Assembly: GCA_004100265.1 (NCBI GenBank) | Contig: SCKW01000002.1 | Span: 1 to 36,350 of the forward strand | Length of the DNA stretch: 36,350 bases | Origin: Candidatus Chaera renei | GTDB taxonomy: Bacteria; Patescibacteriota; Saccharimonadia; Saccharimonadales; Saccharimonadaceae | Direction of reading: 5' to 3' | Part shown: positions 9,176 through 16,150 of the stretch, piece after piece | Position numbering within the stretch: the first letter of the stretch is position 1 | Layout: every line of letters begins with the position of its first letter | Notes under the pieces: model-generated | Databases searched by the model: none | Seen by the model: the letters and a program-made list of their open reading frames with translations, nothing else | Told to the model about the DNA's origin: nothing | Translations under genes and position numbers: made by a program

Positions 9176-12058
9176 CTAATCGGCTTTTTGCAGACGAATG
9201 ACCAGGCGCGCCGAGTCAACTTGTGCTGATACTGCGTGCGCCCCATCGCCCTCCGACGATAGCTGCCTGGCAAGGGTCTCGGCCCGAATGGTTGCCGCGT
9301 GCTCCTGAATCGCCTGGCTCACCTCCTGGTCGGCAGTTTCCAGAACCAGATCAATCCTGTCATCAACCTTGAGCCCGGCGGCTTTGCGGGCATTCTGTAC
9401 CAGACGGACCACTTCGCGCATCGTGCCTTCGCGTCGCAGCTCGGGCGTCAGCTTGAGGTCAATCGCCACCCGCTCGCCCCATTTAACTGATTTAACGTTC
9501 AGCTCGTCGGCGATAATATCACTGTACTTGCCGGGCAGTTTGGGTACTGCTGCCTGGGACAAAGGCTGGCGGACCTTAATTTTGGCTTCGGCGCGTTGGG
9601 CCAGCCCCAGCGCGACATATTCCCTGGCAAGCCCCATGTCTTTTATAAGCTTTTGGTCCACCGGTCCAGCTTCCGGCCAATCGCTTAAATGCACCGACGC
9701 CGGCAGGCTGGTGCCCGCCGTCAGCTTTCTCCAAAGATGGTCTGGCAAAAACGGCGAAAACGGTGCCAGCATCTGGCACAACCGCAATAACGTGTAATTT
9801 AGCGTAGCGTAAGCCTGGCGTTTGTCTTGATCGTCTTCGCTCTTCCAGAAGCGGCGGCGCGAACGCCTGACATACCAGTTGCTAACATCGTCCAGCAAGT
9901 CGCTAAGCGGCCGAGTGGCCTTGTCTAGGCGGTACGCATCCATGGCCTTAGTAACTTCTTGAATCACCTGGTTAAGCCTTGACAGCATCCATCGGTCCAG
10001 CAAGTTGTCGCTAGCCGGTTCTACTAATGGATTGACCGGTCGCCAATTGTCAACCTCGGCGTACAGGCTGTAAAAAGCGTAAATGTTATTAAGCGTCATG
10101 AAGATTTTTCTTTGGGTTTCGCGCAGAAAATCAACGCTAAAACGTACGTCCTCGCCATTCACGATCGGGCTGCTGGCCATAAAAAATCGCAAAGTATCAA
10201 CGCCGAAACTGTCAAAAACCTCATCCATGGGCGCGTAGTTTTTCTTGCGCTTGCTAAGTTTTTCGCCATCGGCCGCGACCACCCAGCCGCTGCATATAAC
10301 GTTCTTGAAGGCGGGCTTGTCAAATAACGCCGTAGCTAGCACGTGCAAGGTGTAGAACCAGCCTCGGGTTTGATCGACTGCTTCGGCAATAAAATCGGCG
10401 GGATAGCGCTTATCCCAGTCCCGGTTACTCTCGAACGGGTAGTGATCCTGGGCGTAAGGCATGGAACCGCTCTCGAACCAACAATCGAAGACTTCATCTA
10501 TCCGTTTGGCGATTTTACCGCCGTCGGTTCTGATTTTAACCCTGTCAATATACGGACGATGCAGATCACCAACCAGCGAAGGTTCAACCGCCCGCCGCTT
10601 CAGCTCTTGCACGCTGCCAATTACCGTTACCTCGCCGTCGTCGGTTACCCACACCGGCAAGGGCGCTCCCCAAAACCGGTTTCGGCTAATTGCCCAGTCG
10701 CGAGCCCCCTCTAGCCAATTGCCGAAACGGCCGTCGCGAATATGGCCGGGCGTCCAATTGATTTTGCGATTGTTCTTTACCAACCTATCGCGCAACGAGG
10801 CAACGTTCACCATCCATTGGTCGGTGGCATAATACATCAGCGGCGTGTCGCAGCGCCAGCAAAACGGATAGGTGTGACGAATGGTTTCGGCAGCAAAGAT
10901 GCTGCCCCGCTTGGTCAGCTCCTCGATAATCAGCGAATCAGCCGACTTAAAGAACCGGCCCTCGATTTCGGCTGGCAAACTGCCCTGGGTAGAAATATGG
11001 CCGTTCTCGTCTACCGTTTTTAGAACCGGCAGGTTGTTTTTTCTGCCCAGCGCGAGGTCGTCTTCGCCAAACGCCGGCGCCACATGCAATACGCCCGATC
11101 CGTCTTCCGTGCTGACAAAATCGGCCGGCCAGACTTTGTACAGATTCTGGCTGTCCGCCAATTCGTCCAGACGCTTAAGCCGATACAGCGGCTGGTACGT
11201 CAGCCCAACCAAGTCCTGGCCCTTGACTTCTTTGATAATCCGATAGGTGTCGGTGTCCAGCACCTCCAGACGGCTGCTGGCCAGCACCAAAACTTGGCTG
11301 CCGCCGTCCTCTGAAGCTGTCTCTACGAACACGTAGCGGGCATCGGGCTTAACGGCAATCGCCGCGTTGCCAGGCAGCGTCCAGGGAGTAGTGGTCCAGC
11401 CTAGCAAGTGAGCGTCCTGATTTGCTAGTTTAAATTTAACGTAAACACTGGGGTCGGGTACGTTGTCTTGGTAGCCCTGATTAAGTTCAAAGTTGCTAAG
11501 CGGCGTGGCGCAACGAGGACAATACGGAGCACTGCGAAAGTCTTTATAAACCAGGCCTTTGTCATAAATCGTTTTAAACGCCCACCATACGCTTTCAATA
11601 TAGCTTTCGTCCAGCGTGGCATAAGTTTGTTCGTAATCCGCCCAGCGACCTACCCGGCGGAACATGTCTTCCCAAACATGCTTGTACTGAAAAACCGAAT
11701 CGCGGCAGGCGGCGTTAAACTTGTCAATGCCGAATTTGACTATATCTTGCTTGCCTCTGAATTTCTTGTCCTTTTCTATGGCGTACTCAACCGGCAGGCC
11801 ATGAGTGTCCCAGCCTACCCGGCGCGGCACGTAGTAACCCCGCATGGTTTTATAGCGAGTTACTGAATCCTTGATGGTGGTTTGCACTATGTGGCCATAA
11901 TGGGGCACACCGTTGGCAAAAGGAGGGCCGTCGTAAAAACTAAACAATGGCTTGTCCTGGCGGTTGGCTAGGCTTTTAGAGAAAGTGCGCTCCTTTTCCC
12001 ATACCCCAAGCATCTGCTCTTCCATTTTGGCTAAAAAATGCTTGTTTTGCTGTGTCAT
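9176..12058 (-). CDS. ileS: Isoleucyl-tRNA synthetase, IleS2 (eukaryote/archaea-like) type
   Basis: DGPPFANGVPHYGHIVQTTIKD (HIGH region); GEKLSKRKKNY (KMSKS region); VGWDTHGLPVE. Start at MTQQNKHF after AAAGGAACCGAT. Confidence 0.95.
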   Translation of the reverse strand: MTQQNKHFLAKMEEQMLGVWEKERTFSKSLANRQDKPLFSFYDGPPFANGVPHYGHIVQTTIKDSVTRYKTMRGYYVPRRVGWDTHGLPVEYAIEKDKKFRGKQDIVKFGIDKFNAACRDSVFQYKHVWEDMFRRVGRWADYEQTYATLDESYIESVWWAFKTIYDKGLVYKDFRSAPYCPRCATPLSNFELNQGYQDNVPDPSVYVKFKLANQDAHLLGWTTTPWTLPGNAAIAVKPDARYVFVETASEDGGSQVLVLASSRLEVLDTDTYRIIKEVKGQDLVGLTYQPLYRLKRLDELADSQNLYKVWPADFVSTEDGSGVLHVAPAFGEDDLALGRKNNLPVLKTVDENGHISTQGSLPAEIEGRFFKSADSLIIEELTKRGSIFAAETIRHTYPFCWRCDTPLMYYATDQWMVNVASLRDRLVKNNRKINWTPGHIRDGRFGNWLEGARDWAISRNRFWGAPLPVWVTDDGEVTVIGSVQELKRRAVEPSLVGDLHRPYIDRVKIRTDGGKIAKRIDEVFDCWFESGSMPYAQDHYPFESNRDWDKRYPADFIAEAVDQTRGWFYTLHVLATALFDKPAFKNVICSGWVVAADGEKLSKRKKNYAPMDEVFDSFGVDTLRFFMASSPIVNGEDVRFSVDFLRETQRKIFMTLNNIYAFYSLYAEVDNWRPVNPLVEPASDNLLDRWMLSRLNQVIQEVTKAMDAYRLDKATRPLSDLLDDVSNWYVRRSRRRFWKSEDDQDKRQAYATLNYTLLRLCQMLAPFSPFLPDHLWRKLTAGTSLPASVHLSDWPEAGPVDQKLIKDMGLAREYVALGLAQRAEAKIKVRQPLSQAAVPKLPGKYSDIIADELNVKSVKWGERVAIDLKLTPELRREGTMREVVRLVQNARKAAGLKVDDRIDLVLETADQEVSQAIQEHAATIRAETLARQLSSEGDGAHAVSAQVDSARLVIRLQKAD

Positions 12059-12088
12059 ATCGGTTCCTTTGCCGTCTCCCGCTTTCAT

Positions 12089-12340
12089 TAAAACAAAAAG
12101 CCATCTCTTTTGAAGGATTTGTCAGAATCCGCCGATACGGCGGACGGTACCATCTGACTTCCAAAAAAGATGGCTCTTTTTGGCTCTTGATTTCGTTCAG
12201 TCTAACGCGCTGGCACGTCGGGTTCTACTTTTCGCCTAAAAACAATGCTCTAAAGTTTAAACGAATTTCTTCCCGCTACTTCGCGGCCGATAACCGCTCA
12301 TCTGCCAGAGACATTACGCACAAGCAGAGTGTATTTATAA
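12089..12340 (-). ncRNA. T-box leader (tRNA-Ile-sensing) upstream of ileS
   Basis: Minus-strand RNA contains GUCAGA-[UGGUACC]-GUCCGCCG-UAU-CGGCGGAU-UCUGAC (12158-12121): the T-box antiterminator/antisequestrator with the UGGN-ACC bulge; N=U fits a tRNA with A73. Located directly upstream of an aminoacyl-tRNA synthetase gene. Confidence 0.78.
12099..12175 (-). promoter_or_regulatory. Long hairpin with trailing U tract that encloses the T-box element (attenuator candidate)
   Basis: Minus strand AGCCATCTTTTTTGGAAG ... CTTCAAAAGAGATGGCT followed by TTTTGTTTT just before the ileS start region. Confidence 0.6.
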
Positions 12341-12345
12341 ACCCG

Positions 12346-12375
12346 ATTATAACACTAAGCGGCGTTAACCTGCAA
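12346..12375 (-). promoter_or_regulatory. Promoter of the ileS T-box transcript
   Basis: Minus strand TTGCAG (12375-12370) N18 TATAAT (12351-12346). Confidence 0.6.
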
Positions 12376-13354: not shown

Positions 13355-16150
13355 TTAACTGCAACCAGAGGTAGTGCCGCAGCTGGTGCATATAAAACAG
13401 CTGCCGGCCCGCTGGGTAAGATTGCCGCAGTTAGAGCATAGCGGCGCATTGGCGCTTATGTAGTTGGCGGCAGCGCCAGGTTGCTGATCAACCGGAGCGG
13501 AATTGTCGGCGACAGACGGCTGTTTATCGCTTTTGGCCGGCCCGGACGCGGCCTGGGCTGCCGCGTCCTCTAGCAGGCTGGCTTGCTGAGTTTGCAAAGA
13601 TTGTTCCAGCTCTTCTAAAGAAGCCAGGCCAAGCTCCAGGCGGTCGTCGATACTTAGATATTCCAGGGCCAGCCTGCGAAAAATATAATCAACTAAGCTG
13701 GTAGCGGTTTTGATGTCGGGGTCATCAGTTGCGCCAGCCGGAGCGAAACTGGTACCGCTCATGGCTTTGACATACGCCTTAAGAGGCACGCCGTACTGCA
13801 AGCCGTAACTGATACTGCGGGCAAAAGAGTCCATCAGGCCGGCCAGCGTGGAGCCCATTTTGGCGGCGGTCACGAACAGCTCGCCCGGGCTGCCATCGTC
13901 GTATTCTCCCACGGTGAAATAACCGTGCAGGTCGCCCACTCTGAAGCTGAAAGTTTTGGAAAGACGGCGTCTGGGCATCTCTCGGCGTACGGCAGCCCCC
14001 TTAACCACGATGGCGGGGGCGGCTTTTGTTAAGGTACCGGCTTCGGCGGCTACCTGGTCTTTGGATTGCTTCTGCCGGCTTTCCAAGGGCTGGCCTACTT
14101 TGCAATTGTCGCGGTAAATGGCGATGGCCTTAATGCCCATCTTCCAAGAATCAAGATAAATCTGCTCCACGTCCTCAACGCTTACCGACTCGGGCATATT
14201 CACCGTCTTGCTAATGGCGCCAGAGATAAACGGTTGCACCGCCGCCATCATTTTAACGTGGCCCATGTAGTGAATAGCGTTGTCACCGACGGCGCAGCTA
14301 AAGACGTTGGTATCTTCGGGTTTTAGGTGCGGCGCGCCTACAACCGTTCCCTTGTCGTGAATGTACGAGGCAATGGCGTGAGCCTGATCCTTGGTATAGC
14401 CCAGGACTTTCAGCGCCCTGGGGATAGTTTGATTAACGATTACCATGGAACCGCCGCCCACCAAAGTTTTGAATTTAGCCAGAGAAAAATCGGGTTCCAC
14501 GCCGGTAGTGTCGCAATCCATCATAAAGCCGATGGTGCCGGTAGGAGCTAGTACGGTGGCTTGCGAGTTGCGTACCCCGTATTTGGCCCCCAGCTCAACG
14601 GCCTCGTCCCAAGCCCCAGCTGCGGCGCTGAGCAGCTCTTCGGGCACCAGACCGGCGTCAATGTCCTGAAGGGCGTCGCGATGCTTCTTCAGTATCCGGT
14701 TCATGCCCTCCTCGTCCTTGGCGTAACCCGCGAATGGACCGACCCGTTTGGCGATTTTGGCGCTAGTAGCGTAAGCGTGTCCCGTCATCAGAGCGGTTAA
14801 AGTAGCAGCCACGGCCCTTCCTTCGTCGCTGTCGTAGGGCAAGCCTTTGGCCATGAGCAGCGCTCCCAAATTCGCGTAACCCATGCCCAGTTCGCGGTAA
14901 GCGCGGGCGTTTTTTTCGATGTTCTCGGTTGGATACTCGCTGTAGCCGACTAAAATTTCCTGAGCCAAGAAGACGGTTTCGACTACGTGTTTGTAGGCGT
15001 CAACGTCCAAACTGCCGTCATCCTTTAGAAACTTCAGCAAATTCAAACTTGCCAGATTACACGCTGAATTGTCCAGATGCATATACTCGGAGCAAGGATT
15101 AGAGGCATTAATGCGCCCCGCTTTTGGGGTGGTGTGCCAGTCGTTGATAACTGTGTCGAACTGCACCCCGGGATCGGCACATTCCCAGGCGGCTTCGGCT
15201 ATCTGTTTAAACAGCTGGCGGGCCGGCAGGGTTTTGTGTATCTTTTTATCCTTTACGCCTACCAGGTTCCAGTCTTCGTCCGCCTCTACCGCCCGCATAA
15301 AATCATCGTTCACCCGCACCGAATTGTTGGCGTTTTGGTATTGAATCGAAATGATGTCGCGGCCGTTCAGCCCCATCTCAAAACCAGCCGCTTCCAACAC
15401 CCGGGCCTTGCGTTCTTCGCGGGCCTTGCACCAGATGAACTCTTCAATGTCGGGGTGATCAACGTTCAAAATAACCATCTTGGCGGCCCGGCGGGTCTTG
15501 CCGCCGCTTTGAATGGTCCCGGCGCTGGCGTCGGCGCCGCGCATAAAGCTCACCGGGCCCGATGCCCTGCCGCCACTGGAACTAAGCAGCTCGTGCGATC
15601 CTCGCAGGGCGCTGATGTTTAGTCCCGCCCCCGAACCTCCTTTAAAGATCATGCCCTCTTCGCGATACCAGTTTAAAATTGAGGGCAAGTTGTCCTCGAC
15701 CTTCAGGATAAAACAGGCGCTGGCCTGCTGGGATCTATCCGGTGCCCCAATGTTAAACCAGACGGGGCTGTTAAAAGCCGCTCGCTGGGTTGCCAGAATA
15801 TACTTCAGCTCGGCGTTGAACACGTCGGCCTCGGCTTCGTCAAGAAAATAGCCGTTTTGATAACCGTGGCGGGTAATCGTGTTCACTACTCTGTCGATTA
15901 GCTGCTTTAAGCTGAATTCACGACCCGGGGTACCCGGCGTGCCGTAAAAATATTTCTGGGCAACTATGTTAACGGCGTTCTGCGACCAAAAGTCAGGAAA
16001 CTCAACGTCGGCCTGCTCAAACACCACCTTGTCGGTGGCAGGATTAACTATTTTCGATTGCCGCTTGACCCAATTTAACGGTTGATAGGGATCGATGCCG
16101 TCCTCTGTGAAATACCGAGTAACTGAAAGTGTCGACACGCTTTGTGCCAT
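13355..16150 (-). CDS. nrdJ: Adenosylcobalamin-dependent (class II) ribonucleoside-diphosphate reductase
   Basis: FNSPVWFNIG; FKGGSGAGLNISALRGS; NPCSEYMHLDNSACNLASLNL; ATVLAPTGTIGFMMDCDTTGVEPDF; Cys-rich C-terminus CSNCGNLTQRAGSCFICTSCGTTSGCS; SD AAGGAGG. Confidence 0.94.
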   Translation of the reverse strand: MAQSVSTLSVTRYFTEDGIDPYQPLNWVKRQSKIVNPATDKVVFEQADVEFPDFWSQNAVNIVAQKYFYGTPGTPGREFSLKQLIDRVVNTITRHGYQNGYFLDEAEADVFNAELKYILATQRAAFNSPVWFNIGAPDRSQQASACFILKVEDNLPSILNWYREEGMIFKGGSGAGLNISALRGSHELLSSSGGRASGPVSFMRGADASAGTIQSGGKTRRAAKMVILNVDHPDIEEFIWCKAREERKARVLEAAGFEMGLNGRDIISIQYQNANNSVRVNDDFMRAVEADEDWNLVGVKDKKIHKTLPARQLFKQIAEAAWECADPGVQFDTVINDWHTTPKAGRINASNPCSEYMHLDNSACNLASLNLLKFLKDDGSLDVDAYKHVVETVFLAQEILVGYSEYPTENIEKNARAYRELGMGYANLGALLMAKGLPYDSDEGRAVAATLTALMTGHAYATSAKIAKRVGPFAGYAKDEEGMNRILKKHRDALQDIDAGLVPEELLSAAAGAWDEAVELGAKYGVRNSQATVLAPTGTIGFMMDCDTTGVEPDFSLAKFKTLVGGGSMVIVNQTIPRALKVLGYTKDQAHAIASYIHDKGTVVGAPHLKPEDTNVFSCAVGDNAIHYMGHVKMMAAVQPFISGAISKTVNMPESVSVEDVEQIYLDSWKMGIKAIAIYRDNCKVGQPLESRQKQSKDQVAAEAGTLTKAAPAIVVKGAAVRREMPRRRLSKTFSFRVGDLHGYFTVGEYDDGSPGELFVTAAKMGSTLAGLMDSFARSISYGLQYGVPLKAYVKAMSGTSFAPAGATDDPDIKTATSLVDYIFRRLALEYLSIDDRLELGLASLEELEQSLQTQQASLLEDAAAQAASGPAKSDKQPSVADNSAPVDQQPGAAANYISANAPLCSNCGNLTQRAGSCFICTSCGTTSGCS

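Follow-up and report, generated by a model that had tools for sequence, protein, structure and literature searches.

The ileS gene and its leader

The window, meaning the whole stretch of 36,350 nucleotides from Candidatus Chaera renei that was analysed, carries on its minus strand an ileS gene, preceded by a leader with the elements of a T-box and of an intrinsic terminator. From the promoter to the gene, the features are the following.

12346 to 12375, minus strand: putative promoter, TTGCAG (12370-12375), an 18-nt spacer and TATAAT (12346-12351), from the sequence and from TATAAT in relatives
12283 to 12297, minus strand: ultrashort Stem I hairpin GCGG-UUAUCGG-CCGC, with the assignable specifier AUC (12289-12291) in its apical loop, from a hairpin scan of leaders and compensatory pairs
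12219 to 12276, minus strand: Stem II with S-turn (GGGAAGAA ... AGUAGAACCC), from the leader motif and the description in PMC7583486
12184 to 12188, minus strand: RRRxG purine motif AAGAG 5' of Stem III, with its AA partner at 12159-12160, motif as in PMC7583486
12161 to 12183, minus strand: Stem III hairpin CCAAAAAGAGCCAUCUUUUUUGG, whose loop and 3' strand double as the terminator 5' strand
12158 to 12175, minus strand: terminator 5' strand AGCCAUCUUUUUUGGAAG (Stem III loop, Stem III 3' strand and AAG), from the own versus cross-genome pairing test
12121 to 12158, minus strand: antiterminator, made up of A1 (GUCAGA/UCUGAC), the bulge UGGUACC (12146-12152) and A2 (GUCCGCCG/CGGCGGAU)
12090 to 12115, minus strand: terminator 3' strand CUUCAAAAGAGAUGGCU and U tract UUUUUGUUUU
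9176 to 12058, minus strand: ileS, isoleucyl-tRNA synthetase (TIGR00392, 902.9 bits), Shine-Dalgarno sequence and start by inspection

The identification of the downstream gene as ileS holds at a TIGR00392 score well above the cut-off of 621.4. Its longest open reading frame begins at 12088, and the ATG at 12056-12058, with an AAAGGA ribosome site at 12065-12070, is the more likely start. Almost all of the nearest IleS relatives (81-60% identity) belong to Candidatus Saccharibacteria, an epibiont lineage of ultrasmall bacteria within the Patescibacteria/CPR (Saccharimonadia), in line with the CPR-like origin that had been proposed. The promoter sequence proposed earlier, TTGCAG-N18-TATAAT, is present as written; its -35 element is poor (3/6) and a consensus promoter scan of the window finds no sigma-70 site. 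However, an exact TATAAT lies 5' of Stem I in 51 of 83 homologous leaders (7.6 expected), mostly at one fixed distance. Elsewhere in the window, a vitamin B12-dependent ribonucleotide reductase is encoded at 13355-16150, in a reduced genome, and no cobalamin riboswitch reaches the Rfam gathering score in the window.

At gathering scores, the Rfam scan of the window returned rRNA only and was blind to the T-box, thus a permissive scan was needed, which placed RF00230 at 12120-12282(-) with 38.9 bits and an E-value of 2.7e-7. Genome-wide, this is the sole match (E 9.5e-8) in a 625-kb, 94%-complete metagenome-assembled genome. The score falls short of the gathering score of 93 bits, which is a curation threshold and not a biological defining feature of T-boxes. 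The alignment spans the full model with Stem I misplaced, and Stem I is the part of the ileS leader that RF00230 fails to place. The leader folds better than 200 of 200 shuffles (z -4.0), and a T-box element is present beyond chance.

In the same family, RF00230 matches at E ≤ 0.1 occur in 107 of 295 sampled genomes (about a third), none of them above gathering, and most of the homologous leaders checked lie directly 5' of ileS. Phylum-wide, 133 of 382 genomes have a match at E ≤ 0.01, 13 of them above gathering. T-boxes are therefore common in CPR and mostly fall below the Rfam threshold. The sequence-only reading of a T-box controlling ileS, sensing tRNA-Ile in a CPR-like organism, is supported by these data: the Rfam model it had named as a check does match, though below gathering, the element is conserved in the family, and the bulge and helices are kept in homologous ileS leaders. 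The ultrashort class III Stem I, the terminator with its unusual wiring and the sub-threshold Rfam status go beyond it.

Recognition domain and tRNA discriminator

In homologous leaders, Stem I consists of four base pairs and a 7-nt loop of the form N-N-A-U-C-R-N. A scan for such a 4-bp/7-nt hairpin, with AUC required at loop positions 3-5, recovered 87 leaders, a count that may include a few opposite-strand duplicates of one site and leaves the picture unchanged, while the rate in shuffled segments was 0.033. The codon at the specifier position is AUC in 79 cases and AGC, the next most frequent, in 28, and compensatory pairs occur in the stem (CG 63/TA 22 and AT 50/GC 32). From the sequence, the specifier can be assigned to AUC at 12289-12291, a point that had been left unsettled; of the two AUC triplets put forward, that of GGUUAUCGG is the specifier and that of GAAAUCAAG is not. 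AUC agrees with the amino acid of the gene and with the genomic tRNA. A tRNA search found tRNA-Ile(GAU) in the same genome, ending in CCCC-A-CCA, and by base identity its anticodon GAU and discriminator base A73 both match the AUC and the UGGU bulge of the leader, as had been expected for the bulge. Together with ileS downstream and AUC in the Stem I loop, this points to tRNA-Ile as the probable ligand, as was previously proposed.

A K-turn (UGA/GAA) is likely to lie below the Stem I hairpin. The hairpin at 12301-12329 (UCUGC...GCAGA) is a lineage-specific insertion that looks to sit inside the bulge of this K-turn; comparable insertions with other sequences occur in two other leaders (L093 and L096). 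Two AGUA motifs had been pointed out, the second of which (12226-12229) is the S-turn of Stem II, whereas the first belongs to the base of Stem I. The S-turn motif is present in 72 of the 87 leaders, and in the window it agrees with the published description (PMC7583486).

The antiterminator motif GUCAGA-[UGGUACC]-GUCCGCCG-UAU-CGGCGGAU-UCUGAC is found at 12121-12158(-) exactly as first written down, with the 7-nt bulge UGGUACC (UGGNACC) between A1 (6 bp) and A2 (8 bp). All six A1 pairs are formed in 86 of 87 leaders, with compensatory changes. The discriminator motif 5'-RRRxG-Stem III-AA-3', as defined in PMC7583486, is represented by AAGAG-Stem III-AA at 12159-12188, and the 5' and 3' strands of Stem III are matched to each other within genomes (0/20,000 permutations). 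In the window, AGAUGG of the bulge helix is also able to pair with the Stem III loop CCAUCU, which is seen in transient folds at 40 and 64 nt and might represent an additional state of the switch. A decayed T-box that has lost its tRNA response, and persists as a constitutive attenuator or simple leader terminator, might be suspected from the low Rfam score and from the loss of the element in several close relatives. Decay is extremely improbable, since nothing is damaged in the specifier, the UGGU bulge, the S-turn, RRRxG/AA or any helix, and these parts covary among relatives.

Competition between the terminator and Stem III

T-boxes are textbook switches in which the terminator takes the strand of the antiterminator. 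In classical transcriptional T-boxes, the antiterminator 3' strands (the 3' half of A1/A2) become the terminator 5' strand (PMC7583486). In the window the terminator 5' strand is not the antiterminator 3' half and the two structures are not mutually exclusive: the terminator 3' strand (12099-12115) pairs with 12158-12175, and the antiterminator remains folded inside a stem of 17-20 bp that is followed by the UUUUUGUUUU tract. A consensus terminator scan of the window with a loop limit of 3-8 found nothing because the 'loop' of this terminator is the whole antiterminator. In stepwise folding, Stem III forms first, is joined by the antiterminator (-26.9 kcal/mol), and is then replaced by the terminator (-42.5 kcal/mol), which displaces Stem III only.

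T-box candidates were drawn from 103 loci, and the terminator 3' strand was paired with the Stem III region of its own genome and of other genomes. By the energy thresholds of this analysis and inspection, 53 leaders were assigned to type A (classical) and 30, including that of the window, to type B (Stem III-type). In type B, pairing of Stem III with the terminator 3' strand averages -13.25 kcal/mol within the own genome and -7.53 across genomes (0/20,000 permutations), while type A shows no own preference (-4.97 versus -5.13; 16,057/20,000); these permutations ignore phylogeny, but type B leaders are drawn from numerous genera on either half of the IleS tree. With the antiterminator strand as partner the pattern is reversed (type B 19,899/20,000; type A 0/20,000), so that the two tests doubly dissociate the types cleanly. 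An ordinary transcriptional T-box, with the terminator competing for the antiterminator 3' strand, would be the textbook arrangement and is what the 53 related leaders have. For the window it is very unlikely, as Stem III is the partner of the terminator strand here (-22.3 versus -10.0 kcal/mol) and in 29 other leaders, and the dissociation contradicts it in that type B has no own-genome preference for the antiterminator strand.

The competition is further supported by covariation. In most leaders, positions 1-9 of Stem III are complementary to both partners and three strands change in concert, with compensation at position 7 (G-C-G 17, A-U-A 5) and at position 8 (A-U-A 10, G-C-G 8, U-A-U 2). 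Furthermore, within a genome the terminator 3' strand mimics the Stem III 5' strand (0/20,000 permutations). One leader (L104) has a wrap-around terminator yet no recognisable Stem III. Within an incomplete coverage of the T-box literature on CPR, Patescibacteria, Saccharibacteria or Stem III/terminator pairing, no earlier description was found, and the passages searched of the TBDB paper hold no mention of CPR.

The family, specifier, tRNA match, strand competition and covariation, all computational results, are best accounted for by a tRNA-Ile-sensing T-box that controls ileS transcription through exchange between the terminator and Stem III, a reading given a probability of roughly 0.83. 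Binding of the tRNA, the direction of the response and termination in the cell are predictions. In known structures, Stem III and the RRRxG/AA purines are part of the discriminator of the tRNA 3' end (PMC7583486). Given this role and the AAGAG-Stem III-AA of the window, uncharged tRNA should lock Stem III and block the terminator. Bound uncharged tRNA would join the antiterminator with Stem III and the purines on either side of it into a single locked discriminator, and RNA polymerase would read through because the terminator 5' half is held within Stem III. If the tRNA is charged or absent, the discriminator would stay unlocked. The terminator 3' strand, which nearly repeats the Stem III 5' strand and is lengthened so that it pairs with the loop too, would oust Stem III; the 17-20 bp terminator would then close around the intact antiterminator hairpin and transcription would stop. 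Since antiterminator and terminator can coexist structurally, the tRNA would have to act via the stability of Stem III, as suggested by analogy with the published discriminator structures of other T-boxes.

The same nesting makes an inverted logic conceivable, in which bound tRNA holds the terminator strands together and promotes termination, and starvation lowers ileS expression. Antiterminator and terminator are indeed compatible in the minimum-energy fold, but losing the synthetase under starvation would make little physiological sense. In addition, Stem III and the purines are required for binding of the tRNA 3' end in known T-boxes (PMC7583486), whereas the terminator here destroys Stem III, and the same aptamer is retained 5' of ileS in close relatives whose platform is classical (tRNA = ON). 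Inversion is accordingly regarded as unlikely, and readthrough upon binding of uncharged tRNA is the preferred direction.

Expression platforms among relatives and known T-box classes

In an IleS tree built by a quick method and containing long branches, both major groups have type B leaders scattered through them, and type A (in genera such as g2 and g12) falls inside a group in which the early branches are type B. Three relatives of the window (L098 2939-3001, L099 1331-1394 and L100 965-1026) have ileS T-boxes with the same aptamer and are probably translational, because they have no terminator and carry an ACCUCC able to pair with the ribosome site, their UGGUACCUCC being complementary to the Shine-Dalgarno GGAG; this suggests that translational control was derived inside the clade of the window. 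The closest IleS relatives (L092, L094 and L097; 74-81% identity over an N-terminal query) come from genomes with no T-box match anywhere (G654, G656 and G659), so the T-box was lost or displaced repeatedly. One aptamer in Saccharimonadia is thus found with three platforms (Stem III-type, classical and probably translational) or lost. Exchange of platforms and loss on this aptamer is the simplest reading, with ileS gene transfer as a possible alternative. We further consider it reasonably likely that in Saccharibacteria Stem III is the working antiterminator, invaded by branch migration without unfolding of the conventional 'antiterminator', and that this third T-box expression platform is ancestral in Saccharimonadia, the classical, translational and lost forms being repeatedly derived on one class III ileS aptamer.

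A crude survey of T-boxes from other CPR, Chloroflexota and Bacillota, in which many loci could not be typed, gave the classical platform as the commonest assigned type. Most of its 'B' flags seem to be artefacts of GC-rich or distant U runs. Two CPR leaders outside the order of the window (L207, AUCGUUU/AAACGAU; L236, GCCUUAUUUAG/CUAAAGAGGC) may have independent Stem III-type terminators.

Several other arrangements were observed. In several genera, an unrelated small gene directly follows the Ile T-box (L016, L017, L021, L040, L045, L077, L078, L089, L090), in some cases with ileS 350-1000 nt further on; these genes include a cupin (L016), a methyladenine DNA glycosylase (L017), DUF5680 (L021) and a GNAT acetyltransferase (L040), among others. 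Six Saccharimonadia T-boxes (L010, L012, L020, L043, L070, L087) precede genes judged by eye to be valS, aspS and thrS, those of thrS with the bulge UGGAACC. Six further leaders (L030, L048, L059, L069, L074, L086) have the bulge UGGUAAC in place of UGGUACC and a terminator on the A2 strand (CCCGCCC/GGGCGGG).

CPR epibionts lack amino-acid biosynthesis and their gene regulation is almost unknown (PMC11665869); an ileS T-box would give them a direct sensor of amino-acid supply. According to a review, transcriptional T-boxes generally require a long Stem I for timely tRNA capture (PMC7583486). The leader of the window appears to be an ultrashort-Stem-I T-box that acts on transcription, with a different strand exchange and Stem III as the decision point. 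Since the same aptamer occurs with other platforms in close relatives, platform swapping can be studied directly.

Among known systems, the leader has the class III combination of a short Stem I, an apical-loop specifier and a Stem II S-turn. With the class III ileS T-boxes of Actinobacteria (such as Nocardia farcinica and Mycobacterium tuberculosis; PMC10482949, PMC7583486) it shares a short Stem I without the distal elbow-binding module, the apical-loop AUC specifier, the S-turn and control of ileS, and two actinobacterial ileS leaders (L281 and L163) have the same layout. The Stem I loop is 7 nt in the window and 5-6 nt in class III (PMC10482949). Class III T-boxes are described as mostly translational (PMC10482949), acting through the Shine-Dalgarno sequence, whereas the window has an intrinsic terminator stem with a U tract, in a CPR host. 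The transcriptional class I T-boxes of Firmicutes (such as B. subtilis tyrS) likewise have a specifier, Stem II S-turn, Stem III, antiterminator with UGGN bulge and transcription attenuation. However, class I has a long Stem I with an elbow-binding module (PMC7583486) in place of an ultrashort one, and takes its terminator 5' strand from the 3' half of A1/A2, not from Stem III. A third comparison is with the classical-platform ileS T-boxes of other Saccharimonadia (such as L006, L009 and L013), which have the same aptamer, gene and lineage, but in which the terminator UUCCAAU...AUUGGAAUUUUUU competes with helix A1 and Stem III is uninvolved.
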